From NCBI GenBank assembly GCA_029378245.1, contig JARKIF010000036.1:372001-436000 (forward strand): a stretch of DNA of 64,000 bases. Reading direction: 5' to 3'. Under the pieces are notes generated by a model, which did not search any database, was not told the DNA's origin, and worked only from the letters and a program-made list of their open reading frames with translations. This stretch comes from Roridomyces roridus. Its lineage: Eukaryota > Basidiomycota > Agaricomycetes > Agaricales > Mycenaceae. The translations under genes and the position numbers were made by a program. Shown one piece after another: positions 24,212 through 47,882 of this stretch. The first letter of the stretch is position 1. Each line of letters starts with the position of its first letter.

Positions 24212-24261
24212 GAAAAAGAAACTACGCACCATCGTATATTCCCGACCCCGATTCGAACGGG
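24212..24261 (-). repeat. B-box/T-run unit a (tRNA T-arm-like, SINE-like)
   Basis: On the minus strand CCCGTTCGAATCGGGG forms a tRNA T-arm hairpin and Pol III B-box; 28 nt further is a T5 run. It is followed upstream by a block (tgtctagacttgtgcagatgg on plus) also found at unit b. Confidence 0.6.
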
Positions 24262-24688
24262 ACTCCTCTGCCAACCTGACTGTCTAGACTTGTGCAGATG
24301 GTGTGAATGTGTCCAGCACATACAGGTGTGGTTGAAGCTAATGAAATTATCCGATACAATTGGGTTGAAAAACTTGGATGTTTCGAGTTCGATGCTCAGG
24401 GCACCCGACAAGACTCGAATACTCGCCTGAATCCGAGTCCCGAACGTCAGTCCAAAGCCAACTTCTGCTTCGTCACCTGCAGGCATCGCCCTGGTCCATA
24501 GAATGTGGGAGAGTGCTGCAACACTGTGGTTGGTTTCTTGGGATACCTATCTCGTGAAGAGATCACGTTGAAGATCTGTGCTGAAGGAACCTGGGCTCGA
24601 TTCCTGGTAATGACCTGGATGCATGTTTTCCCAAGGCAAGCACAGCCTGAATTTAAAAGCATGAACCTCCTTTCTGCGGATGCAAAGC

Positions 24689-24742
24689 AAAAATCGTTGA
24701 CCTAGATAATATTGCAAGCGCCCACGCCGAATCGAACGGCGT
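24689..24742 (-). repeat. B-box/T-run unit c
   Basis: Minus strand: ACGCCGTTCGATTCGGCGT, a perfect 6-bp T-arm stem around the TTCGATT loop, then a T5 run about 31 nt downstream. The preceding sequence (gtctgaagccaaggtgttga) is vaguely like tRNA-Leu/Ser arms but I could not fold a full cloverleaf. Confidence 0.6.
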
Positions 24743-24854
24743 CTGACTCTCAACACCTTGGCTTCAGACTCTCCCCGGTGTAAGTAGAAACCTTCTCTGC
24801 TGCAGCATCGAGATAAGATCAATCTTCACGAGAATGTACATAGATGAAAAATTT

Positions 24855-24901
24855 AAAAAGCATGGTGAGCAGGAGGACGTCCTGCCCCCGAATCGAACGG
24901 G
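24855..24901 (-). repeat. B-box/T-run unit b
   Basis: Minus strand: CCCGTTCGATTCGGGGG followed about 26 nt later by T5 and then a second T5. The sequence before it matches unit a over about 60 bp with differences. Confidence 0.55.
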
Positions 24902-25184
24902 ACTCCACTGACTTGATTGTCTAGAGTTGTGCAGATGGCGGTGAATGTGCCCAGGGTTCAAGCTAATGCCATTATCTATGCAACGGGGTTGAGAAACTCC
25001 TATGGTTCTTCTTTATACATGCCGGGATAGTCCCGGGCCCACCGCATATCCAAGGAGCGTGATGAGAGAGTGTTGGAACATCGTGGTTGGTTTCTTGGGG
25101 TCATCCAAGTATTTCTTCTCCCGTGGCGACTCGTTGTATGACTGGATAAGCGACATCTTCCATCCCTTGAACGGACAAGCCAAC

Positions 25185-25244
25185 AAAAAAAAAAAGGAAG
25201 GACGCAGATCTTCCGGTCTATCGTCCGGCCTCGAATCGAACGGG
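25185..25244 (-). repeat. B-box/T-run unit d with T11
   Basis: Minus strand: CCCGTTCGATTCGAGG, then a 33-nt trailer ending in an 11-nt T run. The trailer (ccggaagatct) and the word gtttcaacagccggt before the core are shared with unit e. Confidence 0.65.
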
Positions 25245-27138
25245 ACCGGCTGTTGAAACTCGAAATAGCGGCAATCTTCATCGCCTCATCGCCTTGAAGG
25301 ACGAGGGTTGTTACTTCCGTACTCGAACACCCTTGACGCAATACACGTCCATTCCATGACACTGTCGAAATCGTCCGAATTTATTTGCTCGCACTCTCGA
25401 GCTCGTTCAGGCACCCGACACTTGAATGTCACTTGCCCGAATGCTACCAAAGCCAAGTTCTTCTTCTACAATCGGATGCAGGCATCGCCCAGTCCGTGGA
25501 ATGTGGGAGCATGTTGGAACATCGTGTCTTACTGACTCTTACATATATTCTGGCGACTTACGATATTATATGTGACTGACCTTCCGGCCACCTTAAGGGT
25601 TTTGTGTACTTGCGTAGATGATACATCAATTCTTCGAGGGCTGGAAGTGTCTGGGAGGTGGCCTAGGTTCAGACGAGTCGAATGAGACCAATATCGCCCG
25701 ATTGTGTCAACTTTTGGAGACATGGGAAATATTTTGGCGAGACAGGTCCAAAAATGGCCAAAACGGCTGAGCCGGCCACTCGTGGGAATCACAGCCTTGT
25801 GCCACGAAACCGCGTCGCTGTCGGTTCCAGGCAACATGCCAGCTGGATAGGCTGCCCAAGAGGTGCCGGGGGCATGCGAATCGACGCGGTGGCACTCTCC
25901 CGTAGCCTTTTAATAAAAAATATTTGTGTATTTGGCTGTCTCGAATGACAGGGCACCGACCTGAGGGACCCGAAGTGTGCAGGTCACCAGCTGGGCGTAG
26001 CAGGGTACGGAAGTCACGAAGATAGGTTCTGAGAATCCATCGCAGCACGCGGGGCCAGAAGCCAGTCGCAGAGGAAGTGATGTACGTCGAGCCTCACGGG
26101 TGTGCCATGCAGGAGGCTGGGCGACGGTACATTGTCGGGGCTCAAAATGTATTTCACGAGGCGGAGGTGACCGTTTGGTGTCGAAAGGGTGTTTTTGTAT
26201 GTGGTAAGTGTCCGTGAACGCGAAGAATTCACTTGAAATAGTCCGAAACGGGGTGTAGTGCTGTCGTGCATGGACTCCGCTTGCCAGCTGTCAATGGCGA
26301 GAACGGGTGCCGAATGCAAAGAACATGGTTCGGGGGATGATAAAAATGTTATTGAAAGGCTATAGACTCATTGGGGAACGTATGGCGAGCAAGGATAGGT
26401 AGGGTGAAGAAGGTGCCGAAACCCATGTGACGGCGAGCTCTCGTTCCAGGCAAAGGCGGGGTGTACAACCACGGTGAGCGGGGTAGGTCAAGATGAGGTG
26501 TATGTGTACGCACTACATGAGCCATTTCCGCCACTGCCACCCTCCATCCCCGCAAAAAATCTCGGAATGTCCGGGGTCGGGAAACAGGCGATGTACAGAG
26601 GTTGGCCTCAAAGACGACAAGAAAAATCGCTAAATACATGTTAGTACCGTCAGTGGGGTACATGGACTATGCTCACTGACCTTACAAAGTTCGGACGCCG
26701 TGCCAGGCATATTGCGTCCGATGCAAAGGTATCAATCCGACGTCTTATGTGGAAGATTTTGCTGCTTGGGCGTGAATCCTGGGTCGTATAGCGGTATTTA
26801 GGGGATGATCCGCCGCTGGTGCATGGAGTGGGGGATAGCCCAAGGTCCACAGAGCATGACGAGCCCAGGAAGTCGTGAATTGGCCAGGTGGTCGTCGAGA
26901 AAGAGGCAGCGGAGTGCAAGCGATGCCACATCCAAAATAAGAAGTCACGTTTTTCGGGCCTACGTCCCGGTCGCCAAGGACCACACATCACGGCAACTCA
27001 ATGAATCAACCCCAAATACAACAACTAGGTAAGAATACCAACTTGGGGGCTTGTATGAGGCAAGTGGCCGGATGGCTAGGCCGGCCGGTTAGGCAGTCTC
27101 AGATAATACGTGACATCTTCGATCCCACCGTGTAAGCC

Positions 27139-27194
27139 AAAAAAAAAAAGTATGTGGATCTTCTGGTGCATCGTCCGCCCTCGAATCGAACGGG
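27139..27194 (-). repeat. B-box/T-run unit e with T11
   Basis: Minus strand: CCCGTTCGATTCGAGG followed 29 nt later by 11 T. It is clearly a diverged copy of unit d both before and after the core. Confidence 0.65.
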
Positions 27195-27346
27195 AGCGGC
27201 TGTTGAACGTGGAACTAGCGGGAATCTCCACAGATCTTCATCGCCTTGAGTACCATGACGATGATTATGAACGGCGGACGTCTGACATGCTCGAAACGGT
27301 GCTCGAGCTAATGCATTTGTTGGCCAGAATAAGCCCGGAGCCCCTC

Positions 27347-27398
27347 AAAAAAGCATTGCTTAGATAACGCCAATGGTCCACCCTCGAATCGAACGAGA
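27347..27398 (-). repeat. B-box/T-run unit f
   Basis: Minus strand: CTCGTTCGATTCGAGGG, then T6 about 31 nt downstream. It lies about 200 bp from unit e in the same orientation. Confidence 0.55.
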
Positions 27399-27580
27399 GG
27401 TACGGCTGTTGGACTGGCGGAAACTGTGGTGGCCTCAGGAAATCGACCAGATCGTACTACTTGGAACACTTTTCTTGAGCCCATGTATGTATCCGTCACA
27501 CAATCGAAATCTTACTTACACTACACTCCTCCTCCTCCCCTCTCCTCTCAATCATCACCACAACACAACACAAAACCAAC

Positions 27581-29624
27581 CTACATCCCACCCCCAACCA
27601 GCGCCGTACACAACTCCTTCAAATTCCCACTGGTCTCCCCAACAACGCGCTCCCTCAAATGCCGATGCCCACTATTATTCGACGCGAACGGGAAGGCGGC
27701 TTTGATTCTGTCGAGACGCGCGCGCGACCAATGGGCGCGGATGAGTCTGTTGGCGTGTTAGTATATATTTTAGAGGCGAGGAGGGAGGGAGGAGGGAGGG
27801 AGGAGGAAGGAGGAAGGAAGAAGCAGCCACTCACCGCATAACCAAAACCCTCTCCCGCGTCCCCATCCCCTCCATAGTCTTCTCAATCATATACGCATCC
27901 CTCAACGCAGCAGGGTCCAACTCGGGATGATGCACGTCCACTTCGCAGCCACGGACAATGTGCATGAGGGCTTTGCGCTCGAGGCCGCCGCTGCCCCAAA
28001 AAAATGAGGTCGTCAGAATGCGAGATGGAGAAGGAGGGAGGGAGGGAAGACGGACAATTCACTATCAATCGCCTTGGTGAGCGGCTTCTTCTGCCTGCTA
28101 TGATACTCGCGGCACACTTGCGAAAGGTGAGGGGCCGTCCGGCTCGTGAGGATCGTGTGGAATTTCGACTGGAATTACAGGTCAGATTGGTGGAAGAGAA
28201 GAGAAGAGAAGAGAAGAGAAGAGAAGAGAAGAGAAGGAAAACGCACCTCGTCAGTCCCCATCCGCCCCGCACCAGCCTTGTACAACGCCTGAGCATCGTC
28301 GATGGCAAGCTGCCCTGGGTTCTGCGTCGACGCGTCGGGGAGGACGAGGCGCTCCGTCTGCAGAGCCAGGGTCATCACTGGTACTCGTCAGCCAATGCTG
28401 GACACGAAGAGAGAGAGAGAACGCACACTTCCGCGCTCCACCATCCAACTTTGTCTGGATCGCCGTAGACAGATTCTTGCCGTACATCTGCTGATAGGTG
28501 TACGACAACAGGTTGATGTCGAACAGAGAGAGGTCGAGGATGAGTTCGTTGAGAAGGTCGCTGTATGGCATGTCAGTCAGCGATGAAATGGAGAGGGAAG
28601 GAGACGCACCCCGCGTCACTGGACACCAATTTGATGAGATGCGCGTCGTATTTGAGTGGTCCTAGGGCGAGGCCGCAGAGACCCGCTCTGCCCAGGATGT
28701 CAGTTTAAGCAAGAAAGAAAGAGCATGCAACGCACTCGAGGTCGCCGCTGCACTCTTTCTCAATCCACTGCAACAGCGTAAGCCGCTTCTTGTTGTTGTG
28801 ATGCATCTGGAACTCCTGCGATACGGCGTCCATCTTGATCGGTCCGAGGTTGACCATAAGATCGATCACTGCGCGTATAAGTACATCGAGTAGAGAGCGA
28901 GAAGGAAGAGACGCACACTGCTTCTTACTCTTATGCGTCAAAATGGCATCAACATCCCTCTCCACGCCGTCGTACTTCTGAATCCCACCAGGGAACCGCG
29001 GGTTATTGATGAGGATCTCGCCGCGATAATACACTTGGGGCGCTTCGACTCCGTACGCACCCGGAGCAGGGCCAGGTGGGGGTGCGTAGCCTCCAGCGGG
29101 GTAGCCGACGGGAGGAGGGCCAGCGGGAGGAGGGTAAGCGCCGAATCCAGGTTGGGGTGCAGAGGGATAGCCGCCTTGGGGCGAGGGTGGGAGGTATTGC
29201 GGTGCGTATCCTGGCTGTCCAGCGGGAGGGGGATAGGCACCAGTTGGAGGGGGGTATGCGCCAGTTGGGGGTGGATAGGCGCCAGTCGGAGGTGGATATG
29301 CGCCAGCGGGAGGTGGGTAAGCACCAGCTGGAGGCGGGTATGCGCCAGCGGGAGGTGGGTATGCGCCAGTCGGGGGCGGGTAGCTTGGGGCGGGCTGGGG
29401 GTGGATCAGATGGATTGAACACGACGAGAGTCAGCACGTACGTAGCCTTGACCTGGCACGGCCTGTATAAAGTATCAGCAGCGTGATCTGACGACGAGAC
29501 TGAGACATACGAATCCTCCGCCCTGAGGGGCACCAGGCTACGATGAACGCGTTAGAATCACGGGGGAGAATGGCAGAGGAAGACAGACATAGGTTCCGTA
29601 GGGGGCAGGGGGTGGGCCAGACAT
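27581..29624 (-). CDS. Annexin with N-terminal proline/glycine/tyrosine-rich repeat tail
   Basis: Calcium-dependent phospholipid-binding protein, probably cytosolic and recruited to membranes. The ATG is at 29624; about ten exons separated by short introns end at TAG 27581-27583. The N-terminus (MSGPPPAPYGTY) leads through short exons to a proline-rich domain with about seven or eight copies of AYPPPAG/TYPPPTG (about 29226-29385). A linker with VYYRGEILINNPRFPGGIQ follows. Annexin repeats then appear as DAILTHKSKKQ..KRLTLLQWIEKECSGDLE; LLSYTYQQMYGKNLSTAIQT; then DDAQALYKAGAGRMGTDE with TILTSRTAPHLSQVCREYHS. The last repeat has EKTMEGMGTRERVLVMR and RIKAAFPFASN, ending GETSGNLKELCTALVGGGM. The core GxGTDE/GMGTRE motifs are kept in repeats 3 and 4; repeat 1 has lost it (LTHKSKK), so calcium sites may be few. 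Exon joins were inferred by eye. Confidence 0.9.
28193..28236. repeat. (AGAAG)n microsatellite in an annexin intron
   Basis: About nine uninterrupted copies of the pentamer gaaga. It lies between two annexin coding exons on the minus strand, where it reads as a pyrimidine tract within the intron. Likely length-polymorphic. Confidence 0.9.
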
Positions 29625-29803
29625 GAGGGGAAGAAGGAAGAAGGCGGTTTGAAGGCGGTGGTTATAGTCTTGGCACAAGGCTGTGAGTGTCACCGCCTTT
29701 GACAGCGCAATCAGCGCGCCCTGTCCCGATCGGGCATTCACGGCCTTGGAACGGCCGGTCCCGAACAATTGCCGCATCGAATGTGAAAGCGGAATCTTGC
29801 GGG

Positions 29804-29854
29804 AAAAAACTTGTAAGTCAGCATCATTCCAACCCCCCGAGTCGAACGAGGGGT
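29804..29854 (-). repeat. B-box/T-run unit g
   Basis: Minus strand: CCTCGTTCGACTCGGGGGG, then T6 about 24 nt downstream. It lies just upstream of the annexin start, divergent 5' DNA shared with the type 1 copy that follows. Confidence 0.6.
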
Positions 29855-30170
29855 GTCCTAATGTCCGAAGTTCTTTCATGGAACGAGATCAATGACTGGA
29901 ATGTGCGCATTTAAGCAGCTTCAACTTGAACGCATTTGTACATACCGGTACTCTTGCGAGACCGGCGGCCCGGAAAAAAAGCAGGGTCCGTGATTTTTTA
30001 GTATTCCCGCCCGAATCGCACGGGTGCCAACCTCGGGTCTGCGACCCAACGTAACAAGAACAACAACACACTTCGCGAAAGTGTACATTATCTTGAAGGC
30101 AATAGAGGCAGTTGGAAGAGAATTTTGGCGGGTAAATCTCGTTTGTATGCGCATTTGAAAAACTCGAACT
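29850..30170 (-). repeat. Type 1 dispersed repeat copy carrying unit h
   Basis: About 300 bp on the minus strand is homologous to 39310-39665 (plus) and its inverted twin 47676-48031. Shared blocks include gacattgatctcgttc-like and acattccagtcattgatctc, gtgtacattt/gtgtacattatc, and gggcgggaatactaaaaaat. Copies differ by many substitutions, so this insertion is older than the inverted duplication. Confidence 0.7.
29974..30024 (-). repeat. B-box/T-run unit h (inside the type 1 repeat)
   Basis: Minus strand: CCCGTGCGATTCGGGCGGG, with one change in the T-loop (GTGC for GTTC), then T7 about 28 nt downstream. Trailer: aatactaaaaaatcacgg, as in units l and p. Confidence 0.6.
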
Positions 30171-30209
30171 CGAAGGACTTCTATCACCCGGTCCCGAGTC
30201 GAACGGGGT
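30158..30209 (-). repeat. B-box/T-run unit i
   Basis: Minus strand: CCCCGTTCGACTCGGGACC, then T5 about 30 nt downstream. It abuts the type 1 repeat in the same orientation. Confidence 0.55.
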
Positions 30210-30497
30210 TGCCAGCAAGATTCGGGGGAGTGCAGTGTTCAGATACACACAACTCCGTGTCCGCATTTATTCAGGAATCGATGCCACTCTCCGCTTTTCG
30301 CACCTCAAAATCTTGTTTCTCATTGGGGACCCATATCTTGATTTCGGAGGGTGCTGGTGCAGTGTACCTCGTTCCCGCCTGGCGCCATGGATTTTTTCCC
30401 ACATCCCGCCGTGCTGGGTGTCGCGCTCATCTTAACCTGAACGTGTTTGTACATATTGGTACTTCCTTTCACTTTATTTGCCCTTGCAGACCGGGAG

Positions 30498-30545
30498 AAA
30501 AAAATGGAGCAGCCTTTGTGAGTATTCCTGCCCGAATCGAACGGG
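30498..30545 (-). repeat. B-box/T-run unit j
   Basis: Minus strand: CCCGTTCGATTCGGGCAGG, then T7 about 25 nt downstream. The trailer aatactcacaaaggctgc resembles that of units h, l and p. Confidence 0.6.
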
Positions 30546-31506
30546 TTCCATCTCGAGCGCTCAAGCTCAAGTTTGTCTTTGCAGGAACCAGACGCTTCGA
30601 TATCCGCAGGTGCGATTGCCAAGACCACAGAAGCGGTTGAATTCTACAAACAAGTTTGTACAAATTTGCCAGTCACTTTGTTGTCCATCATCGCAGCGCT
30701 TTCGCGACTCGTTTGATGTTTGGACCTAGCTTACACTATTGATGACCGATACTGGGCATACAAGTTCTTCTTCCGTGGAGAGAGAAAAACATACGGGACC
30801 AAGGGTCAGTCGGTCATCTCTATCCGCCCAGACCCGACGGCGAGTCGAAGGGTTAACCGATTTACAGCTGGAGGATGGCATGCAACTGAGCACAGGCTTC
30901 GGATACACGACCGTGGGTGTCATAGAGTAAGGAGATGAATGAACCCCTTTTTGAACAGCGGTTGAGTTGAACTGACTGGACTCACGGTGGATGCACGATA
31001 AGTAGTAAGCGAGCTCAAACAAAAGGCTTCGAGGAGGTGCAGACTCCTCACCGAGCCCCAAGTCGATCCATGCCTTTCACGGACATGACGACGTGCACAA
31101 AAAGAGTACCTGTGGAGAAGGGTGCAAAGGTAGTGGTGCACGTACTGAACACGGGAATGCACACGCAGGTATGTCTCAAATCATATAACACCCTAAAAAA
31201 TCTCAATGTTTTCCCGGTGGACAGTTATTAGGGCGAGTCAGAAAAAAAGGTAGTTTCTCAGAGTTCGAAGAATTCATGATGCAACCCCGAATCGAACGAA
31301 GTTTTCTTTGCAGCGAACGCACATTGTAGGGCTGCTTGTCCGGGTATCAGATGCACAACCGTGGACTGTGTGTGGTGACCACCACAATAAATCCAGTCTG
31401 AACACAGTAATTGAAAACCGAGTCCGGAAACGCACGCACATCATTCAAACATCATTCCATCATTCTTTGTTGACGGTTGTGTACCTTGCTCTTGTCACAA
31501 ACCACC
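30546..31506. other. Intergenic region before the first F-box gene
   Basis: No gene is supported. It includes unit k (31242-31300), and the last 70 bp should be the promoter and leader of the F-box gene: the words cattccatcattctttgttga here recur upstream of the second F-box gene (about 45600, opposite strand) and, diverged, at about 43790-43830. Confidence 0.5.
31242..31300 (-). repeat. B-box/T-run unit k
   Basis: Minus strand: CTTCGTTCGATTCGGGGTT, then T7 about 36 nt downstream. The trailer atcatgaattct is shared with units n and o. Confidence 0.6.
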
Positions 31507-32346: not shown

Positions 32347-32373
32347 GGTTGTAAGGTTGTGTATTATGTGAGG

Positions 32374-32455
32374 TTGATGGCGATCAGTGTAATGTTGATG
32401 GCGATCAGTGTAATGTTGATGCACATCAGTGTAATGTTGATGCGCATCAGTGTAA
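32374..32455. repeat. Four tandem 21-bp units at the left transposon end
   Basis: Unit ttgatggcgatcagtgtaatg repeated about four times with changes in the third and fourth copies (gcacatc, gcgcatc). The cagtgtaatgtt/cgtgtaaggtt core matches the right end in inverse orientation, so these are probably subterminal transposase-binding repeats. Confidence 0.8.
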
Positions 32456-32700
32456 ACCCGCGCAGCGCTCACGAAGGAGGTTCGGCTAACAGTCCGATCT
32501 CGCGGTTCTGCGCCTTTGTGCGCTCATCGTCCCAGAATGGCAGGCCACGGCCCCCGGATCATCGATTGTCGGCAATCGATTACGCTCTTGCTTTCTCCCA
32601 CCTCATCGCCCGCCCTCCCGCCCTCCCGCCCCACGAAACGGTGAGTGGCCCGGCGTGCCCCAACTTTTCATTGATGATAGAAACATACTTTCCAGGCAGG

Positions 32701-37491: not shown

Positions 37492-37594
37492 TGTACGTAC
37501 GTACATAATAACGGTACTCGTGCATGACGGCGGGATGTCCAGGCCGCCGAGTCCAGCGCCATCAAAGTCCTCGCTTCGCACAACATTACATGAT

Positions 37595-37653: not shown

Positions 37654-37679
37654 AGTGCGCACACACCCGATGGGCCAGG

Positions 37680-37687
37680 TTTTTATA
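37680..37687 (-). promoter_or_regulatory. Orphan TATA box (promoter copy without its gene)
   Basis: Minus-strand tataaaaa, the duplicate of the TATA box at 51658-51665 before gene A. In this arm the homology ends 11 bp beyond it, so the promoter now points into the end of the transposon and antisense to the transposase gene. Confidence 0.6.
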
Positions 37688-38453
37688 CGTGTTTCTTAGT
37701 CGCGAGCAGCGCCCCGTTAGCACTGAATTCAACTTGGAAAGGAATCGTTCCCGCACCTTTCCTCGTTTCACGAACAAAACAGGGAACGCAGTCCATTGTT
37801 TGAGCCGTTGGCGCTGCAATATTAATGAGGATATTTCAGTCCATGGGGAAGAGGAAAAGAGGCGAAACATACAACCAAGTACTCCATCGCGCGGAGACAG
37901 TAAACGAGTTGTCGCTGGTCTGGGAATGAATGGGCGAATGAGATGTCGGGGTTGTTGGCTGAGAATACGACGAAGAATCCAGTCAACTGGTGCCCACCTG
38001 GAACATCCCCCCAAAAATGGGCGGCATTGCGTCAAGGGGATGCCAAGGCAACATCTCACATCTCGAGTCTCAACCGGGTGTAGAATTCGGCGCAGCTTGG
38101 GTGCAAAACCCGTATGGGTTACCCTTCCGCATCAAATCGCGGGTGGTTCGCGGGTTCATGTACATACTGGGGTGAACCCGAAGGTGAGCCCGTATACCCG
38201 TCCCGACGAACCCTAATACAGCGGTTTTTAAATTAGTGCATATACGGGCTGTGCCTTGCTCCACCTACATCGTGCTGACCTTGGGTTGACGGCGAGCCTG
38301 CTTCTTCGAGGCCTCCGCTCCACTCAACTCCACAGCCCAATTCACCAGCTGTGCGCGGCTAGACGGGATTTCCTTTCCCCGAACACTGGCCACATGTGAG
38401 TAGAGCGAAGCAGGCATGCATTTGCCCAATTGGGGTCATCTGCTCGGCAGCTG

Positions 38454-38705
38454 TCAAGATACGGCAAATGTGTATGATACTGGAGCTGCGACGAGGACTG
38501 CCGATAGAAGGACCCCGAGCAGTAAGACCGACAAGCACCGATGAAATTCCTTCGGCGTCGATCCTCCGATGCCAGCAGCGAGGGCGAATCCAGATCCTGA
38601 AGTGAGGGAGACGTCGAGGAAGAGGGATCCTGTTGCAACAGTCAGCTTCGAGATACAGAGGAGGAGGTACTCTGACCGAGGTTCTTTCGCCGACTTTCGG
38701 ATCAT
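38454..38705 (-). CDS. Small ORF with hydrophobic segments, unknown
   Basis: An 83-codon frame from ATG (38705) encodes MIRKSAKEPRSEYLLL.. with hydrophobic stretches near residues 28-50 and 60-82 (SVLLLGVLLSAVLVAAPVS). It is unchanged in the right arm at 50643-50894, but the whole block is absent from the third related region near 56.3 kb. Nothing else supports expression; it may be chance. Confidence 0.2.
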   Translation of the reverse strand: MIRKSAKEPRSEYLLLCISKLTVATGSLFLDVSLTSGSGFALAAGIGGSTPKEFHRCLSVLLLGVLLSAVLVAAPVSYTFAVS

Positions 38706-39309
38706 GACTGCACAGGGTATCTAACTCTCGGTCGCAGATGTCTGGAGCTCCTGAGGCGAGCAATCAGAGTCAGAATTATCAGATAAAAAAGAGGCCGCCC
38801 TGGAGTAGAGGAAAGACTGTCGAAATGACCACCCCGTGGAAACGATGTCGTGGAAGACAAGACGATGCGTGGCTGTGTATCGGATCAGCGGGCCGCGAGC
38901 TTACGTACCACCACTGTGTTCGGTGTCGTACGCAAGTAGTAAACTGACGAGGCCTGATTCAACTTCAGGCCCTGATTGCAAGGGAGCCCGGATGGCTACA
39001 GAGGTTGATAAAGAATATCAGTTTGGTCCGATGTCGAGGAAGGATCGTGAAAATCAATTCTGAATTCCAACTGAATTCCGAATGGTCAGTCGAGAAACTA
39101 CGAGTCCAGACTCTGCCATCGACCCCTCCAACTCTTCCAAAGCCGCGGAAAGCGACTTCCTCCGCGCTCCGTGGGCGTCCGAAGGAAACCACTCGCACTG
39201 AGAAAGAGCCCATCGCGGGTTTCGAAGAGGATATCTGCTTGGGTCGGCCTCGTCAAATGCGTTGGAAGCGCTCCCCTTTCCTTTTCTTCAGGTTGAAGTT
39301 TCAGAATCT

Positions 39310-39665
39310 CAACTGCGGTAACGAGATTTACCCGCCAAATTGTACAAATGTGTATTCCAGTTCAATTCCAGCTGTCTCTATTGCCTTCAAGCTAAATGTA
39401 CACTTTCGCCAAGTGTGTTCTTGTTCTTGTTCCTTGCGTCGCAGACTCGAGGTTTTCACCCATTCGACTCGGGCGGGAATACTAAAAAATGACGGTCGCA
39501 GCTTTTTTCTCGGCCCCCGGTCTCGCAAGGGCAACGCAAGGGGCCACCTGAAAGGGAGTACCGATATGTACAAATGCGTTCGAGTTGAACCTGCTGAAGT
39601 TGGCACATTCCAGTCATTGATCTCGTTCATTCCATTGACGTTGAAAGATCTTCGGACGTTGAAGT
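39310..39665 (+). repeat. Type 1 dispersed repeat copy carrying unit l
   Basis: Homologous to 29850-30170 (opposite strand) over about 300 bp and near-identical to its inverted twin in the right arm. It ends close to the 3' end of the phospholipase D gene. Confidence 0.7.
39458..39508 (+). repeat. B-box/T-run unit l
   Basis: Plus strand: CCCATTCGACTCGGGCGGG (A for G at the first T-loop position), then T6 about 30 nt downstream. It has the same trailer as unit h. Confidence 0.55.
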
Positions 39666-39867
39666 GACGAAGAAGATTCCGGGAGGAATTAGGAATGGAG
39701 CTCACGTGGGAAGATTTCAAGTCTCGACGAAGCAAATAAATACACAGCGTGTCCCTTGTATCCTTTCCAGTGAGCGGCGTGTTCCCGAATTGCAGAAAAT
39801 TGTCAGCGCACCTCCGACCGCGCCCATCATTCATTCATTCCCCAATTCCAATAAATACACAGTCCAT

Positions 39868-42800
39868 TCAAATATAAATGGGAAGCGTGGGGTTAAGCCC
39901 CTCCCAGTCAATACCCTCGACCAAATCCTTCTCATCCATGAGGAAGTCCTGTGCGAGCCGTCAGCGTCAATTACACACAGGAAGAAGGAAGGGGACGTAC
40001 GATAGGAGCTTCGACGAGCGCGCCCTTGACCTCCGCAAGCCGATTCTTGACACGCTGCAGTGGGACGCCAGGGGCGACGTGCCCCGTCTTCACCTTGGGC
40101 ACATAGTTCTACCAAATCCTATCAGCACAACATAGAGTGAGGAAGAGATGATATCACATACATCATACGCCTTCCAATCGCGCACCAAGTTACTCGGCAC
40201 AGGGCGGAAGATCTCGGTGAAGATCTCCCGGTTCTTGCGCGCCGTCGTGCGCCAGAGTTCAGTGAAACCCTCCGAAAGCGGGTCAGCGACGAGCGCATCT
40301 TCTTCCTCGCGCGTCTCGTCCGGGTTGGGGTTGGGGGCAGGCCGCATGAACGCGCTCGGCTTCTCGTGATACTTGTCGGTGTACTGTGGTTCGATGAGGC
40401 CGAGATGTTCTGCCGAGAGCGTCAAAGGATTAAACGGGAAAGGGGGAAGTCAACATACCGCGGAAGAGCTTGCGCCGCAGAGTCGCTGCGAAACGAGACA
40501 CTTGATATGGGCGACCGTCCATCGTCGAGTCAATCATATCTTCGTCCTCCACCACGAGTGCAATCTCCGAGTCACCATCGCCCTTCTGACTGCGGTCGTT
40601 GAGGTTAGCCGAGCCCATCTAGTATCCCGGTCAGCACGCCCAATAACTCGAGGGAAAAAAGACTTACAATAACCCTCCGATCATCCACAATCATGAGCTT
40701 GGTGTGGATATACACCAGCTCCGACACATACGAATCCAACTCCTCCCTCTCGGTCCCCAACCACTTCTCATCCAACAAACTCGTCCGATCATGCAACATG
40801 TGTTGAACCACGTTATCAGCCACATCTTCATCCCCTCTCACGCCCTTGGCACCACGCTCAAACCGCTCAATAATCTCCCGCGCGGCGTCTTCCGAGGGCG
40901 GAATCGGCACGGTTTCGGTGCGAGGCTCAGTCTTTTCGGTGACGACGATCCCTTCGCCGGTGGGTTGAGGCAGCGCGAGCGTGACCTCCTTCTGCGAGTC
41001 GTCCACACCCGTACCGATCCATTGACGCGCGAGGGCGACCTGAGCTTCGGAGTACTTGACACCAGAAGCTTCCTCGGCGTGATTGATGTACGTCGCTGAA
41101 AATGCGTCAATACACGGCTCTCTTTGAAAAGGAGAGACTAACACAAGGGCGCGTTAATGCGGTCATAGGCGCGAAGATGGAAGAACCGGATATAGTCCAT
41201 CGGCTCATACCCCGCCTTGCGTACCTCCTCAAAGATACTATGCCCACCGCGGTTAATAGTACGGTACATGGCCCCCATAATCGTCTTGAGCGAACCCTCC
41301 TTCTTGAGATCCCCCGCAAAACCAGGCACCTCGGGGATGACGACGATAACTTGGAATTTCTGACCATGCTGGCCCGCGCGGACGATACGCTCGACGAGCG
41401 AGGCTGCGATCTGATTCTTGACGGGGTCCTTGTCGTGCGTCGCGGAGATACTAGCAGCCCATTAGTGAAATTCAAACTAAAGAGAGGAAGACGTACAAGA
41501 ATTGATTCTCGATATAGATGAAATGCTCCGCCTCACGGATAAGCTGGCGGTAGGCGTTCTGGATACTATGCTCGGTGAGAACACCATGCGACCAATCGCT
41601 CACACTCCGCACGACTTGAACACGCATGCCCGGAGTCTGGCGCTTCGCATAGTGCGGCTCGTCATCGTCCTCAGGCCAGCCGAGCCATCGCTGGCGGTAA
41701 TGATGCCCCATCTCACGCCACGTCTCGCGATGCGGGTGCCTCACGACCGCCTCGTTCGGAGCAGCGTCGATGTCGTGAGGGAGGGCGAGAACTGGGTACT
41801 TGGGATCACGGTACTTGCGCTTGCGAATCTCGTTCCAACGCTCGGTAAAGTGCTGCACAATGTCGAGCACGACGGGACCTGTGAGGGTCATGTGTACGTC
41901 GTGCCACGGCATGCGGGCGCTTTCGAGAGGGGAAAGGGTGTTGGAGGCGTAGTTGTAGACGTTCTGGAAGTCCATGATACGTGCGTTGTTGTAATCCTGC
42001 CCAGGGAAGAGCGTGAGGGAAAAGTCGGTCGGGTGGACGTCGGCGAGCGGGTGAGTGTGCGTGTCCCAACGGCCAAAGCAGAGGTCGAGGCCGCCGATGC
42101 AGGCGTAGTGGTTATCGACGACCACGACCTTCTCATGGTGAGACCAGAACTCGACTTGGTCTAAGAAATTATCAGTCAAAGAAGCACGATGTAGCGGACG
42201 ACGCACCCTTGGTACCGATATGGTCTGGGTGACGCATGCAGGTGATATTTGGGTGGAGAGACTCGAGCCAGTTCTTGGTGTGCTTGGAACTCATAGTCAT
42301 CGTCTGAGTGACTTCCTTGTAGACGATAACGTGGATCTTGACGCCCTGCTCGGCCTTGCGCTGCAGCAGCTTGTCGAGACGCCATTGGGGATTGTGGGCC
42401 GGGGGACGACGGAGGTAGAGCTCGGGAGTAAGCCACCAGTCCTACAAGAGTTGTGAGATGCGGTGGTGCCGATTCACGACACACGCACCTGGATGAAAAT
42501 GACCTCTTTCGCGTTATCCAACATCTCCGAGACGGCGTAAAAGTAGTCGTGGCCATCAATGTGCCTATAAAGAGATGTGAATATGATACCGAAACGAAGA
42601 GGCTACTCACCACTTGACAAAGTTCTGAGCACGCTCCGCAGCAAAACTCCCAAACCGATGGCTGGCGTTGATCTCCGCGCGGATAGCATCTTGACGCTTC
42701 TCCTCGGGATCGTCGTGGCGACCTATAACTCGCGTCTCAGTATCCTCGCCATCGTAGCGTCCACAGTCTCACGATTAGGGTTAAGAATGCCTGCCAACCG

Positions 42801-42920
42801 TCGGTCAGCTCTGGTTCTTTGCACGTCGGTCGTCTACGCACCGATAACCTCTTCACGGGCGTGGTGGTAGCCCTCCGGGAGCTTCTCAACGAGCGCCTCG
42901 ATCTTCTTGAAGAAACTCAT
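39868..42920 (-). CDS. Phospholipase D (two HKD motifs), intact copy
   Basis: Predicted to hydrolyse phosphatidylcholine or related lipids to phosphatidic acid on intracellular membranes. Start ATG at 42920 (MSFFKKIEALVEKLPEGYHH), stop TGA 39868-39870, about ten exons. Early exons give RFGSFAAERAQNFVKWHIDG, FIQDWWLTPELYLRRPPAHN and KIHVIVYKEVTQTMTMSSKH. The first catalytic motif is HHEKVVVVDNHYACIGGLD (about 42085-42145). Conserved sequence follows: FPGQDYNNARIMDFQ, MPWHDVHMTLTGPVVLDIVQ, HSIQNAYRQLIREAEHFIYI. The second motif is YIHTKLMIVDDRRVIMGSAN (split by an intron at about 40618-40672), then LNDRSQKGDGDSEIALV. There is no obvious PX or PH domain, as in fungal PLD-like enzymes of about 850 residues. 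Its 3' 1.3 kb is duplicated at 46143-47473. Confidence 0.93.
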
Positions 42921-44075
42921 GGTGGTGGGAGGAGAGGGAGAAAGGGAATTCGAGGCAGTGCGTTGCTTGGCATGGAGCGCTCGGTAACGACGGCGCCGTC
43001 ATTTTGATTGATTTGATGCGATAACGGCTTGCCTTTTGCCATCTCGGGATATCTCTTTTCGCGGCTTCCTCTTGGCGGCAGGCCCCGTTTCTTATACTCT
43101 TGTAAGTATACGGCTCTGCACGCTCGAACTATTGGACGAATCCTGCTCGAAGTACGTTTGTCAATGCGGACTAAATTGAAGGTCCAACTGAATTCAATCG
43201 ACTTGGCGATTTATATCCTAAGCGGTGTTGCGGGTTCGCCCTGCTCGGCGATTCAGAGACGGACCATACCGCGTCCCGAGAGCTCCACGTCGTGGTATGC
43301 ATCGACGATCGGCGGGATGTCACTAAGACGGACTCCGGAGCGATACTTGGCAGAGTCACGGCCGATACTACAATTTGTACAAAGTCAAGGACGCCTCTGT
43401 CGTGGTACGTAGCGGCAAAGCACCGGGAGGAACCCAGGATAGAAGCTCGAAAAGGCGTGAACAAGTTCAAGCATCTCAGACCCATTTTTTGCGGAAGGGT
43501 ACGAAACTCACCGCGAGTCACCGACGCCTTCGACGGAATGAGGAGTCTGCTCGAAGTTGGAGACATGGAAATCATCCTGCAGGGAGGTCTGCTTCTTCCT
43601 TCCACCGCGTGTTGACCTCACTCCGTGCGCAGGAAATGCCAAGGATTGATGCCCAGTGTGAAGTCAACGACATGATAATATGAATCGAGTCTGACAGAAA
43701 TTTCAAGAAGTTGAACCCACACGTCGAGCCGATATCTTCTCTCGTGTACTGTGTTTTCACCGTGGCCTCAACAACGGTCCACAACCGAATCGTCAACAAG
43801 GAGTGATGGAATGATTGTACTTGCTTCCAAGCTCGGTTTCTGATTATTCTCTTCAAAGCATTTAAGTAATGCATCCATGCCAGTGGACATGAACAACCCG
43901 TTCGACTCGGGGCTGGGTATTTGGTACATCATGGCGTTCTTTCTCTTTTCTCAGTCGCCATAGAAAACAGAATGAACAGCACTTTCATATGAATCGAGTC
44001 TACAAGAAATTTCAACACCCCACACGTCCTCTCATGCATCGTCGCACGTCCTCACCGACGCTCCACAGCCGACTC
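42921..44075. other. Spacer of the inverted duplication, no gene
   Basis: Should hold the phospholipase D promoter (first 200-300 bp) and the 3' flank of F-box gene 2. A word gaatcgagtct..agaaatttcaa occurs at about 43682 and 43990. At 43770-43830 (minus) there is a diverged copy of the F-box gene promoter, suggesting a lost third F-box copy. Confidence 0.45.
43896..43949 (+). repeat. B-box/T-run unit m
   Basis: Plus strand: ACCCGTTCGACTCGGGGCTGG, then a pyrimidine stretch with T4 at 43946-43949. The flanking words ggggctgggt and ctcagt.gccat match units n and o, of which this is a diverged copy. Confidence 0.5.
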
Positions 44076-45563
44076 CTACGCAAACTCAAAGACCTTGAAC
44101 GGTAATCCAGCATCGGGGGAGTTACGTGCCTGATACACCACCCCGGAGCGATCGTCCACCGCGAGTACAATTTCCTGCCATGGAAGCGCAACTTTCGGAG
44201 GAATCGGAAGGCGTCGACTCTCTACATGCGGTGTGGGTCCACGAATATACTGGAGGAGAAAGACGGCGTCGCTGGGGTCCTTGATGACAACGCAGGTACC
44301 AGAGGAGCCCACGGCAATACAATCGATAGTCGTAGTGTGTTGGTACGAGCAGACAGGGCCGACGGTGAGGGCCGAGTCGTTTGCGCCATGAGCTGCAGAA
44401 TACTCTGCGGGCCAGAACAGGATACGGTGTGCTGAACCGTCCTCCGTTGGACGTTTCACGACATTCAAGATACCGTAGGTGGGCGGTCTCATATGAGAAT
44501 GTCTGAGCTCTCTTGCTCTTAGGGCAGGGCGCTCGTTGGGGGTAACAGGGGGATGATCATGTCGCGTGGTATGCGTGTGCGTCGGTGTCGCGTGTATTAT
44601 TTCCGCTGATTGTCCGTGGTCTTGCATGAAGACGAAGAAATCGTGGCCGACGGCGACACCTGCGAATGCGGCGGGAGCATTCGCGGAAGAAGTTGGCTGG
44701 ATCACCAACACGAAGCGGTGGAGCTCTTGGGGCTCGGTCGTGCGACAGTAGAATAGGCAGCGGTCCTCACCACCCATGGAACCGACGACACCAAGCGTGT
44801 TTTCACTAACGATCAGAGATTCGATACTTACTGATTGTCTCGTGGCAGGGCCAGCTGCGCGAGAAGGTCGAGGACACGGTCACTGCTTCTGAGTCTCGAT
44901 AATCGACATTGAAGACGGCGAATGCGAGCTCGTTCTGATCACTGAGTATCATGAATACTGGCTGGTGGGGGATAAGATGATATATGGACTCACTAATGAT
45001 ACCGAGCGAATCCCACAGAGCACATTTCCGCGGAATAGAAAGGCCGCGAGCACTGGCCGAAGGTCGCATCCGGATGACACTTGGCCAGATACTCGCCCGT
45101 CGTGGTGTTCAAACAGGCGAGGCTTCCATCAAAGACGACAAGAACCATGTGCGTTCCCTCGATGGGCAGAATGTGCGAAGAGTACGATTCACCCGCTATA
45201 TAGTGAGAACGAATCGTCACGGGCAGCGGGGACTCGGAGGCCCAATTCTTTCTAAGCTTGTATGCGTGTACGGCCATGTCGCGGAGCTTGTAGAGAGGGA
45301 GAAAGGTGAGGTCGGTTCCAGGGGTACAGGGTATCGGTCGTCTATAGATTTTTTCCATCCGATGAAGAGATTCGATCCAGAATGACGGCGACTGCAGGAG
45401 GGCCGCGCATGCGCTGCAGGTCTGTGGGTCCGTCAGTCATCGCACAAGTAGAAGCCGAAGATGGTAGGCGTACGGCTGCGAGATGTCGGGAGTCCGAGAG
45501 GTCGAGTTCTTTTGCAATTTCGAGGAGGATATCGAGTGGGACATCGGAGAATTGGAGTAACAT
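44076..45563 (-). CDS. F-box protein gene 2, full length
   Basis: Likely substrate adaptor of an SCF ubiquitin ligase. The ATG at 45563 aligns with that of F-box gene 1. The F-box is FSDVPLDILLEIAKELDLSD then SRHLAA in exon 1. After an intron the next exon reads SPSFWIESLHRMEKIYRRP, DLTFLPLYKLRDMAVHAYKL, HILPIEGTHMVLVVFDGSLA, CLNTTTGEYLAKCHPD and SVGFARYH. Then come ELAFAVFNVDYRDSEAVTVS and a last exon from about 44777 with GGEDRCLFYCRTTEPQELHR, FAGVAVGHDFFVFMQDHG, a His/Thr-rich loop and DDRSGVVYQARNSPDAGLPF. The C-terminal part has repeated short hydrophobic strands, perhaps a beta-propeller. It shows what F-box gene 1 has lost. Similar proteins are expanded in agarics. Confidence 0.82.
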
Positions 45564-45749
45564 GATGGTGGTTCGTGACAAGGGCAGGATACACAAAGGT
45601 CAACAAAGAATGATGAAATGATGTCCGTGCCATATTTTAGACAATTATTGTGTTCAAAATGGATTCAAGGATTCAACATTCCTGAGGCCTGAGACCCAGA
45701 TGCCCCTGAGCTCTGCATAAATAACGGAATCACGCTGTAAATTGGAAAA

Positions 45750-45801
45750 CCCCGTTCGACTCGGGGCTGGGTCATGAATTCTCGCAATTTCTTGCTTTTT
45801 T
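45750..45801 (+). repeat. B-box/T-run unit n (left hairpin arm)
   Basis: Plus strand: CCCCGTTCGACTCGGGGCTGG, then T6 about 29 nt downstream. It is identical to unit o in the other arm. Confidence 0.6.
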
Positions 45802-46039
45802 CTCAGTGGCCATGAAAATGTACTATTACGGATAACATTGGCTAATCTCTGTGGGCATTATTTGATCTGAGAGATGCCTGGGTGTGCATCCAATACGTAC
45901 GTCTTTGGAAAGAGCTCGATCGAGCTGGGGCTCGGTGGCGACTGTCCATCTGCTCAAAACCTTTTGTTTGAGTTCGCTTACTATGTGCATCCACAGCGTA
46001 ATCTAGTCAGTTCAAGTCAAACTTTTCATGGCCACTGAG

Positions 46040-46091
46040 AAAAAAGCAAGAAATTGCGAGAATTCATGACCCAGCCCCGAGTCGAACGGGG
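46040..46091 (-). repeat. B-box/T-run unit o (right hairpin arm)
   Basis: Exact inverted copy of unit n on the minus strand. Transcription from n and o would converge on the loop of the hairpin. Confidence 0.6.
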
Positions 46092-46142
46092 TTTTCCAAT
46101 TTACAGCGTGATTCCGTTATTTATGCAGAGCTCAGGGGCATC

Positions 46143-47473
46143 GGACTATATCCGGTTCTTCCATCTTCGCGCCTATGACCGCATCAACGCGCCCTTGTGT
46201 TAGTCTCTCCTTTTCAAAGAGAGCCGTGTATTGACGCATTTTCAGCGACGTACATCAATCACGCCGAGGAAGCTTCTGGTGTCAAGTACTCCGAAGCTCA
46301 GGTCGCCCTCGCGCGTCAATGGATCGGTACGGGTGGGGACGACTCGCAGAAGGAGGTCACGCTCGCGCTGCCTCAACCCACCGGCGAAGGGATCGTCGTC
46401 ACCGAAAAGACTGAGCCTCGCACCGAAACCGTGCCGATTCCGCCCTCGGAAGACGCCGCGCGGGAGATTATTGAGCGGTTTGAGCGTGGTGCCAAGGGCG
46501 TGAGAGGGGATGAAGATGTGGCTGATAACGTGGTTCAACACATGTTGCATGATCGGACGAGTTTGTTGGATGAGAAGTGGTTGGGGACCGAGAGGGAGGA
46601 GTTGGATTCGTATGTGTCGGAGCTGGTGTATATCCACACCAAGCTCATGATTGTGGATGATCGGAGGGTTATTGTAAGTCTTTTTTCCCTCGAGTTGTTG
46701 GGCGTGCTGACCGGGATACTAGATGGGCTCGGCTAACCTCAACGACCGCAGTCAGAAGGGCGATGGTGACTCGGAGATTGCACTCGTGGTGGAGGACGAA
46801 GATATGATTGACTCGACGATGGACGGTCGCCCGTATCAAGTGTCTCGTTTCGCAGCGACTCTGCGGCGCAAGCTCTTCCGCGGTATGTTGACTTCCCCCT
46901 TTCCCGTTTAATCCTTTGACGCTCTCGGCAGAACATCTCGGCCTCATCGAACCACAGTACGCCGACAAGTATCACGAGAAGCCGAGCGCGTTCATGCGGC
47001 CTGCCCCCAACCCCAACCCGGACGAGACGCGCGAGGAAGAAGATGCGCTCGTCGCTGACCCGCTTTCGGAGGGTTTCACTGAACTCTGGCGCACGACGGC
47101 GCGCAAGAACCGGGAGATCTTCACCGAGATCTTCCGCCCTGTGCCGAGTAACTTGGTGCGCGATTGGAAGGCGTATGATGTATGTGATATCATCTCTTCC
47201 TCACTCTATGTTGTGCTGATAGGATTTGGTAGAACTATGTGCCCAAGGTGAAGACGGGGCACGTCGCCCCTGGCGTCCCACTGCAGCGTGTCAAGAATCG
47301 GCTTGCGGAGGTCAAGGGCGCGCTCGTCGAAGCTCCTATCGTACGTCCCCTTCCTTCTTCCTGTGTGTAATTGACGCTGACGGCTCGCACAGGACTTCCT
47401 CATGGATGAGAAGGATTTGGTCGAGGGTATTGACTGGGAGGGGCTTAACCCCACGCTTCCCATTTATATTTGA
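46143..47473 (+). pseudogene. 3' fragment of the phospholipase D gene (duplicate)
   Basis: Near-identical to the last 1.33 kb of the gene at 39868-42920, with all intron positions kept. It begins mid-exon (DYIRFFHLRAYDRINAPLC) with no start codon or promoter of its own, contains the second HKD motif region (YIHTKLMIVDDRRVI), and ends ..EGLNPTLPIYI. The first HKD motif is missing, so it cannot make an active enzyme. Amino acid changes against the parent are few (for example V to G in GTGVDDSQ and T to A in QYTDKYHEK). Confidence 0.93.
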
Positions 47474-47832
47474 ATGGACTGTGTATTTATTGGAATTGGG
47501 GAATGAATGAATGATGGGCGCGGTCGGAGGTGCGCTGACAATTTTCTGCAATTCGGGAACACGCCGCTCACTGGAAAGGATACAAGGGACACGCTGTGTA
47601 TTTATTTGCTTCGTCGAGACTTGAAATCTTCCCACGTGAGCTCCATTCCTAATTCCTCCCGGAATCTTCTTCGTCACTTCAACGTCCGAAGATCTTTCAA
47701 CGTCAATGGAATGAACGAGATCAATGACTGGAATGTGCCAACTTCAGCAGGTTCAACTCGAACGCATTTGTACATATCGGTACTCCCTTTCAGGTGGCCC
47801 CTTGCGTTGCCCTTGCGAGACCGGGGGCCGAG

Positions 47833-47882
47833 AAAAAAGCTGCGACCGTCATTTTTTAGTATTCCCGCCCGAGTCGAATGGG
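47833..47882 (-). repeat. B-box/T-run unit p
   Basis: Inverted twin of unit l within the right duplication arm: CCCATTCGACTCGGGCGGG and T6 on the minus strand. Confidence 0.55.

Follow-up and report, generated by a model that had tools for sequence, protein, structure and literature searches.

A candidate family of tRNA-shaped, probably non-decoding Pol III genes in the agaricomycete Roridomyces roridus

The TMERs of murine gammaherpesvirus 68 carry miRNA hairpins after a tRNA-like part, and mascRNA and menRNA are released by cleavage of long nuclear transcripts from a single region. At the ETC sites of yeast and the COC and IR boundary sites of fission yeast, TFIIIC acts on chromatin. AfuSINE2, which we take to be a fungal tRNA-derived SINE, represents the mobile elements with a tRNA-like head. 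One report (PMC3547838) describes Neurospora milR-4 as a Pol III, tRNA-linked milRNA with RNase Z processing that lies between two tRNA-Ala genes with its star strand after them, and another (PMC10886601) describes Helenus TRIM elements as LTR elements with 5-bp target duplications. Here we compare these systems with a 64,000-nucleotide stretch of DNA (the window) from the agaricomycete Roridomyces roridus and with related sites across its 90.8-Mb assembly. The sequences are likely to belong to a large, fast-evolving family of Pol III genes for tRNA-shaped, probably non-decoding RNAs that has been multiplied by local duplication.

T-arm cores and the T runs that follow them

A preliminary description of the window had proposed at least 16 units, each with a tRNA T-arm core followed on the same strand by a run of T at a near-constant distance. 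All 16 cores were recovered in place, units a to k, o and p on the minus strand and units l, m and n on the plus strand. The shared motif is looser than had been described, with TGCGATT for TTCGATT in unit h and CCCA for CCCG in units l and p, and the independent sites number only 14 because n/o and l/p are inverted-repeat copies. The distance held at every site: the first run of at least four T (T4+) starts 25-36 nt past the end of the 17-nt T-arm in 16/16 cases, compared with a first T4+ run starting 24-36 nt away from 3.7% of random window points. The window holds 10 strict T-arms (5/5 bp, GTTCRANYC), whereas 40 order-2 Markov simulations gave 0.23 on average.

The same association extends genome-wide, where T runs are commoner after the core than expected by chance. 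With at most one mismatch, the T-arm core has 1,860 genome sites versus 104 for the reversed pattern, and GTTCGANTCGGGG has 558 on both strands (283 forward and 275 reverse) versus 8 reversed (6 and 2). When a T6 run starting 21-45 nt later was also demanded, GTTCGANTCGGGG gave 105 forward and 154 reverse matches and the reversed pattern gave 0 and 0. Because long T runs were counted repeatedly on the reverse strand, the forward figure alone is used, which places T6 downstream of 105/283 forward sites; of 45-nt stretches drawn at random from the window, 1.7% contain T6. Among 83 non-redundant arms, 79 are followed by T4+, and most often the run begins 24-36 nt beyond the arm. In a set of 63 non-redundant CG-closed arms that leaves out loci fetched or chosen by the T6 pattern, T4+ falls within 48 nt past the acceptor position in 59, whereas A4+ occurs at the same place in 5 and T4+ lies within 48 nt upstream of the arm in 3. 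T4+ follows within 50 nt in all 37 units found by covariance model at E <= 3e-7, although the model contains no T run; the loci of 27 of these units were chosen by means other than T6. TTTT lies inside 9 of these 37 unit bodies where 11.8 would be expected, which shows no avoidance of T4 within bodies, and TTTTT lies inside none. By sequence, then, the sites have the B-box and fixed-distance T-run terminator of type-2 Pol III genes. It is a tentative suggestion that some share of the more than 1,000 core sites in this genome may be complete Pol III genes, taken jointly with the payload repertoire considered below.

Units within the window

Unit n (45693..45801, plus strand) is the best preserved in the window and the only one there whose acceptor stem closes with the usual spacing. 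Its acceptor strands (5′ GACCCAG at 45693-45699, 3′ CTGGGTC at 45767-45773) form 7/7 pairs, the 5′ strand of the anticodon-position stem (TCTGC) lies at 45712-45716, the T-arm at 45750-45766 and T6 at 45796-45801, and covariance model R1 scores the unit at 38.6 bits (window E 5e-8). Unit o (46040..46158, minus; T6 46040-46045; 28.1 bits) is its inverted-repeat copy; the repeat arms (45699-45818 and 46023-46142) are letter-identical, and o is cut inside its acceptor 5′ strand at the end of repeat I5 (46023-46142). Unit m (43830..43949, plus; T-arm 43896-43912, T4 43946-43949) has a weak cloverleaf and 24.0 bits. Only these three reach E < 1e-3 with R1 in the window, m with 3.2e-4 in one scan and 0.0011 in another. 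Unit a (24213..24328, minus; T-arm 24246-24262, T5 24213-24217) follows with 21.1 bits and E 0.0018; by eye it has a D-arm-like TGTG CTGGA CACA and a TCTGC/GCAGA stem, and its acceptor is without a match.

The remaining units were traced mainly by arm and T run. On the minus strand lie unit b (24689..24741; T-arm 24725-24741, T5 24689-24693) and unit c (24855..24902; T-arm 24886-24902, T5 24855-24859), the upstream body of the latter resembling that of unit a by eye. Units d (25185..25245; T-arm 25229-25245, T11 25185-25195) and e (27139..27280; T-arm 27179-27195, T11 27139-27149), also minus, are paralogues joined by repeat D18 (82% over 92 nt); in unit e a perfect 7-nt acceptor partner (CGTCCGC) precedes the T-arm by 78 nt, a spacing longer than that of the arrays. 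The minus strand continues with unit f (27347..27398; T-arm 27382-27398, T6 27347-27352), unit g (29804..29851; T-arm 29835-29851, T6 29804-29809), unit h (29974..30025; degenerate arm TGCGATT at 30009-30025, T7 29974-29980), unit i (30158..30208; T-arm 30192-30208, T5 30158-30162), unit j (30498..30546; T-arm 30530-30546, T7 30498-30504) and unit k (31242..31301; T-arm 31285-31301, T7 31242-31248); h and j belong to the GGAATACT trailer group and repeat D9. Unit l (39458..39508, plus; degenerate arm 39458-39474, T6 39503-39508) and its inverted-repeat copy p (47833..47883, minus; T6 47833-47838) lie in arms (39073-41198 and 46143-48268) that are 100% complementary by the repeat search, yet not letter-identical on direct comparison. 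For most window units, and for most T-arm sites overall, the acceptor had no convincing partner at the standard distance, and RF00005 at its gathering score had no match in the window. The window looks like one cluster in which most units are eroded or divergent.

Cloverleaf anatomy, arrays and constraint

Better-preserved arrays elsewhere in the genome have an acceptor stem, a short D-arm at the place expected for an A-box and an anticodon-position stem closing a variable loop of 25-39 nt (median 30 in 37 units). An A-box-like D-arm and the full cloverleaf, which the preliminary description could not see, are present in these members; the D-arm is not clear in most window units. The 37 covariance-model units have the 7-bp acceptor and 5-bp T-arm with GTTCRANYC of a tRNA gene, a combination that most window units lack. 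Across the 37, paired cells make up 89.5% of the acceptor, 93.4% of the T-stem and 77.8% of the anticodon-position stem (the last figure partly reflecting alignment offsets), and about 11 units have a broken D stem. Two-sided pair changes number 71 versus 25.2 in shuffled controls for these units, 15 of which are the seeds, and 27 versus 9.8 for the seed set. An acceptor partner score of at least 12 was reached by 37/139 sites, six of them canonical or Helenus-like tRNAs, versus 8.0 with swapped acceptors. A GG-bearing D-arm followed by YCYRY accompanies 24/83 arms versus 6.05 simulated; it is clear in the arrays and not clear in most window units. RNAalifold alone recovered the acceptor and T stems and did not recover the D and anticodon-position stems as drawn. 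Folded singly, the L005 and L091 units form acceptor, D-like and T arms. Folding relative to shuffles gave z of -2.5 for unit n, -2.9 for L005, -2.6 for L014 and -2.0 for L091, and was little or no better than shuffles for unit a (-0.4), m (-1.2), e (+0.5) and L075 (-0.2).

Listed neighbors within 1 kb of each other share one strand in 42/42 cases (36/36 without C6). Five reciprocal pairs from one pair of arrays, C6 and C13, allow scaffold and loop to be compared: the scaffold differs at 7/295 positions, the loop at 16/155 (p 5e-4) and the aligned flanks at 208/1282 (p 8e-13), with some flank alignments poor (70/148 in one pair). Alternative counts weaken this result. The main scaffold tally counts a decayed pair as 4/52 with 20 gap columns, and recounting that pair as 10/61 gives 13/304 versus 16/155 (p 0.015). 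The scaffold value of 7/295 is significantly below the divergence of the second-best BLAST segment joining the arrays (91.4% alike; p 7e-5) but not below that of the best one (95.4%; p 0.10). These comparisons point to some constraint on the scaffold.

On this reading a complete gene comprises a 7-bp acceptor, a D-arm (4 bp, mostly with a 5-nt loop) at the place expected for an A-box, a 5-bp anticodon-position stem closing the variable 25-39-nt loop and a T-arm serving as B-box; a T4+ run, usually 16-30 nt past the cloverleaf, would act as terminator. TFIIIC would read the A and B boxes, the T run would halt Pol III, and trimming of the transcript at the acceptor stem by RNase P and RNase Z would leave an RNA of about 82-98 nt with a constant tRNA-like handle for stability. 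Copying by local, same-strand duplication would be followed by loop divergence and then erosion, the window being one such cluster. A possible further step, offered with low confidence, is that the constant handle carries the locus-specific loop, in the anticodon position of a tRNA-shaped scaffold, as a payload, for example a small-RNA source or bait. Arrays would then diversify by duplication while selection keeps the scaffold and the loop drifts, and the repertoire could yield small RNAs or baits directed at mobile elements or at mycoviruses. Two of the 37 loops, searched against the genome as 22-nt pieces with at most 3 mismatches, matched only themselves and, for one, the matching C13 array.

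Alternative explanations and known systems

The preliminary description had guessed at Pol III-transcribed tRNA-derived SINEs or small ncRNAs. Old SINEs, retroposed copies that kept the B-box and terminator while their bodies decayed, would account for an internal Pol III promoter, a terminator, high copy number and a tRNA-like head, and most window units show no more than a B-box and a T run, as could be expected after decay. We nonetheless regard this origin as unlikely. Flanks share words of at least 9 nt, the sign of target duplication that was sought, in 1/37 units (0.2 expected; shorter duplications would escape), and the longest shared flank word averages 4.9 nt in the 37 units versus 5.0 for mismatched flanks. 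No copies of unit bodies outside their own array or window appeared among the best 40 of 258 and best 40 of 84 candidates for two queried stretches, the C101 array and window positions 24100-31500. The single strand of all 42 listed neighbor cases within 1 kb also argues against SINEs, and compensatory stem changes with a scaffold differing less than the loop are unexpected of decaying copies. The SINE half of the guess is thus unsupported, whereas the B-box and terminator layout and the small-ncRNA half draw good support from sequence. Solo LTRs of Helenus-type TRIM elements, with a tRNA-like promoter inside the LTR, are a most improbable source, even though the same genome carries a Helenus-like element and Helenus is reported from Agaricomycetes (PMC10886601). 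Helenus-like copies in the genome have TGTTG...CAACA ends, matching 5-bp flanks on 7 copies and either orientation, whereas the units keep one orientation per array and have a CCCG/CGGG T-arm versus GCAGG/CCTGC in the Helenus-like element; the test of unit flanks covered words of at least 9 nt, longer than the 5-bp duplications of Helenus.

That the sites are TFIIIC landing sites acting on chromatin, with any RNA incidental, would agree with the many sites that retain only a B-box and T run and with regional unevenness (3 sites on C1 versus about 34 expected and 40 on C13 versus about 16, with expectations from dividing the sites listed for three contigs in proportion to length), but fixed-distance T runs and compensatory acceptor changes are needs of a transcript and not of a DNA-binding site, and we find this reading quite unlikely. 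It is likewise improbable that the arrays are tRNA genes turned pseudogenes or bearing an intron as the long loop. Acceptor, D-arm, anticodon-position stem and T-arm do stand in tRNA order, and ARAGORN made tRNA calls at five places in 4/9 array loci (His, Stop, Gly and two with no assigned type). However, T occupies the U33 place in 3/37 units, the D-loop has 5 nt in 27/37, and the variable loop measures 25-39 nt where a tRNA has a 7-nt anticodon loop; RF00005 at E <= 1 had no match in the nine array loci (33,149 bases); and the scaffold changed less than the loop between C6 and C13, the opposite of what an intact anticodon would give. A genome search with RF00005, in which 63 of 4,178 first-look candidates were scored, gave 31 matches without a locus, some of 97-133 nt. 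SINEs, Helenus LTRs and decoding tRNAs all fit worse than non-decoding Pol III genes.

ARAGORN and Rfam scans missed most of the tested loci, and therefore a class of structured RNAs may be unannotated in a mushroom-type genome. If transcribed, non-decoding Pol III genes of this kind would retain the tRNA fold genome-wide as a scaffold for variable sequence and would offer loci at which non-canonical output of fungal Pol III can be tested directly. The units could also distort tRNA and SINE counts in related genomes.

The units share with canonical nuclear tRNA genes the order of acceptor, D, anticodon-position and T stems, the A- and B-box places and the T-run terminator, but have a 25-39-nt variable loop instead of a 7-nt one, no conserved U33 and a D-loop mostly of 5 nt. 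Like mascRNA and menRNA they would give tRNA-like transcripts with non-decoding roles, yet they stand in gene arrays with their own boxes and terminators. TMER genes are also clustered and specify Pol III tRNA-like, non-decoding RNAs; the variable part of the units lies inside the anticodon-position arm, not after the tRNA-like part. Fungal AfuSINE2 and other tRNA-derived SINEs are alike in a tRNA-like Pol III head and many copies, whereas the units give no signal of target duplications of at least 9 nt, lie in same-strand arrays and show compensatory stem changes. Helenus TRIM elements (PMC10886601) are tRNA-like with A and B boxes and occur in Basidiomycota, but the Helenus-like element of this genome is very unlike the units. 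The kind of pathway proposed for the units, a fungal Pol III transcript with RNase Z, is that of milR-4 (PMC3547838), but milR-4 does not occupy a loop within a tRNA-like fold, the place where the units carry their variable sequence.

T-arm units in the window and across the genome

The preliminary description had reported sixteen sites (units a–p) at which a tRNA T-arm core, corresponding to a B-box, is followed on the same strand by a run of T. All sixteen were recovered on the claimed strands, with units a–k, o and p on the minus strand and l, m and n on the plus strand. The near-constant spacing also held: the first run, of 4–11 T, begins 25–36 nt past the T-arm in 16/16 units, and a random point in the window meets its first T run at 24–36 nt with a probability of 0.037. 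The window has 10 strict T-arms, against a simulated mean of 0.23. The cores of units h, l and p are degenerate, and since n/o and l/p are inverted-repeat copies, the independent sites number 14. ARAGORN and Rfam at gathering scores gave no match within the window. Scored with covariance model R1, unit n (45693–45801; 38.6 bits, E 5e-8) is the sole full member among the window units. Unit o is a copy of n truncated in the acceptor, units m (24.0 bits) and a (21.1 bits) are weak, and unit e can pair its acceptor at all 7 bases, though with a partner 78 nt upstream, and shows no clear D-arm. The remaining window units retain the T-arm and T run, and may be eroded or may represent a variant requiring just a B-box and a terminator.

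Between units d and e lies a repeat of about 1.5 kb (approximately 25564–27108) with many genomic relatives, mostly 76–87% alike, and no ORF longer than 113 aa. Large inverted repeats, 95–100% complementary, pair 39073–41198 with 46143–48268 and 37655–38935 with 50414–51690; they represent a recent inverted duplication, which carries units l and p. Downstream of the cluster, 51648–62921 holds many duplicated blocks in two-copy families 76–92% identical, which are probably duplicated genes. An ORF at 11696–12388 on the minus strand matches the Pfam rva_4 integrase core (PF24764, E 3.2e-23).

An encoded fragment of phospholipase D finds its top named-organism match in Botryobasidium botryosum (65%), and Marasmius, Mycena and Agrocybe are among the top named matches for an RPB2 fragment (88–95%), which makes the host an agaricomycete. 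In the whole assembly (90.8 Mb, 501 contigs), CCCGTTCGANTCGGG occurs 1,860 times with at most one mismatch versus 104 for the reversed pattern, and GTTCGANTCGGGG occurs 558 times versus 8. The claim that T runs trail the core was borne out genome-wide, as a run of six T starts 21–45 nt after GTTCGANTCGGGG at 105/283 forward sites versus none for the reversed pattern (background, 1.7% of random 45-nt window stretches). After removal of near-duplicates and of arms from a separate Helenus-like element, 108 T-arms remained in the DNA examined, 83 closed by a CG pair and 25 not. Runs of at least four T lie within 48 nt past the acceptor position in 79/83 CG-closed arms, a count that includes loci fetched or chosen through the six-T pattern; with those loci excluded the figure is 59/63. 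On the same 63 arms, runs of at least four A follow the acceptor position in 5, and runs of at least four T precede the arm within 48 nt in 3. Such T runs accompany 19/25 of the arms not closed by CG. In 64/83 arms the base that follows the discriminator is T, a conserved trailer position without obvious role. Chance origin and a DNA palindrome were both rejected because the core far exceeds both the simulations and the reversed pattern and because the T runs stand on one side only.

Arrangement was assessed from 200 places among the matches listed, which merged into 155 sites. Among these, neighbours within 1 kb share a strand in 42/42 cases, or 36/36 without contig C6, whose array matches one on contig C13; within 20 kb the figure is 64/78. 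The spread among the matches listed is patchy, with 3 sites on C1 (4.57 Mb), 23 on C2 and 40 on C13 (2.07 Mb). One further array, L040 148–1258 on contig C24, comprises six T-arm units, all on one strand and most of them lacking a clearly paired acceptor, and adjoins a Helenus-like copy.

Paired stems and their conservation

The first reading of the window had found neither a clear A-box nor a full cloverleaf. For most window units this stands, but better-preserved arrays elsewhere in the genome have an A-box-like D-arm and paired stems. In these arrays, the 7 bases past the T-arm pair with 7 bases ending mostly 50–69 nt upstream of it. The parsed order is a 7-bp acceptor, two bases, a 4-bp D-stem, one base and a TCYGC/GYRGA-type stem of 5 bp, then a loop of 25–39 bases, 3–5 bases, the T-arm, the acceptor, one base, the trailer and the T run. 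The covariance-model scan that had been proposed for tRNA-like folds returned 50 places at E ≤ 1e-3, with overlapping loci set aside and seeds included. A stricter set of 37 units (E ≤ 3e-7) came from a search of 14/54 sources, chosen for strong matches. Among these units the D-arm has a 5-base loop in 27/37 and GG in 29/37, the T run begins 16–30 nt past the cloverleaf in 35/37, and a TATA-like element lies upstream in only 3/37. All 37 have at least four T in the next 50 nt, 10 of them in loci picked by the six-T pattern (L075, L090, L091). The motif search had missed a few of the units, whose B-box is degenerate.

Acceptors vary among arrays and their two halves change in step, as in GGCTYGG/CCRAGCC, ACTCGGT/ACCGAGT and GACCCAG/CTGGGTC. 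Because families share acceptors, the acceptor-swap control used partners differing at three or more letters, which keeps it from being too lax. Two-sided changes fill 27 cells in seed alignment A2 versus 9.8 when shuffled. In the 37 units, of which 15 are seeds, they number 71 versus 25.2 shuffled and at most 26 in slid controls, in an alignment that was fitted to the covariance model and so leans towards it. RNAalifold alone recovered the acceptor and T stems and not the other two, and folding was better than shuffles for only some single sequences.

Contigs C6 and C13 carry matched arrays that are probably alleles; their longest BLAST segments are 95.4% alike over 2,484 columns and 91.4% over 1,317, with shorter ones at 76–94%. 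In five reciprocal pairs, the tRNA-shaped scaffold differs at 7/295 positions versus 16/155 in the loop (p 5e-4). Aligned flanks differ at 208/1,282 (p 8e-13), a figure that is too high because some flank alignments are poor, and the loop does not evolve significantly more slowly than these flanks (p 0.06). The 7/295 counts the pair C6_42698/C13_603707, which includes a visibly decayed unit, as 4/52 with 20 gap columns. Counting it as 10/61 gives a scaffold total of 13/304 (p 0.015 versus the loop), and removing it leaves 3/243 versus 9/123 (p 0.004). Relative to the two long segments, 7/295 is lower than in the 91.4% segment (p 7e-5) and not significantly lower than in the 95.4% segment (p 0.10). 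Five C6 units without a reciprocal partner and two unpaired C13 units were set aside, and C13_608207 (L030) was not included. The near-identical copies L094–L096, and L067 versus L069, have almost no differences and are therefore unusable for this comparison. The pattern is what would be expected if a functional RNA fold enclosed a loop that is free to vary; coming from one array pair, it is suggestive, not conclusive.

Candidate readings and known systems

The units are not obviously a mobile element. The idea of tRNA-derived SINEs found little in its favour when target duplications were sought, with flank-shared words of at least 9 nt in 1/37 units versus 0.2 expected from mismatched flanks. 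When the C101 array and window 24100–31500 were queried as DNA, the matches were repeats that lie between units or cut into them; among the best 40 of 258 and of 84 candidates, respectively, no unit copy with E ≤ 1e-3 lay outside its own array or window. L091 7061–7142 is a weak candidate, a decayed unit (E 0.0065) with the D-arm GCGCCCGGCGCGC recognisable, and is interrupted by a many-copy genomic repeat starting at 7092. By contrast, the same genome has a separate element with a 123-bp LTR, TGTTGAAGG...TTTTCCAACA, bearing a near-canonical tRNA-Ile(TAT)-like sequence, and these traits fit Helenus (PMC10886601). Copies lie at L031 1464–1829 (+) and 2001–2365 (−) and in L038, L043, L049, L050, L060 and others, either as solo LTRs or as two LTRs 243 nt apart. 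Matching 5-bp flanks (for example AGAAG, CAGAG, GAGAG, GGGTG) border three of its two-LTR copies and four of its solo LTRs, out of 22 LTRs listed; the remaining flanks are mismatched or not judgeable. Helenus-type elements and intron-bearing decoding tRNAs were also considered for the units and are disfavoured, the latter on the loop and on U33.

A B-box, an A-box and a T run are the marks of a type-2 Pol III gene, and the B-box, A-box-like D-arm and T run of the units fit one. Judged on sequence, we think it fairly likely that the units are Pol III genes for non-decoding tRNA-shaped RNAs. RNase P and RNase Z recognise an acceptor and T-arm, and the variable loop might be a payload. Two of the 37 loops, searched as 22-nt pieces, matched only themselves and, for one, the corresponding C13 array; with no other genomic match for these two, a self-target is not in evidence. 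The F1 D-arm sequence had 0 matches in viral contigs, which says little. Among the matches listed from the open-licence literature, no title or abstract describes a family of such tRNA-shaped genes. A fungal precedent is provided by Neurospora milR-4, described in PMC3547838 as a tRNA-linked Pol III transcript that is processed by RNase Z.
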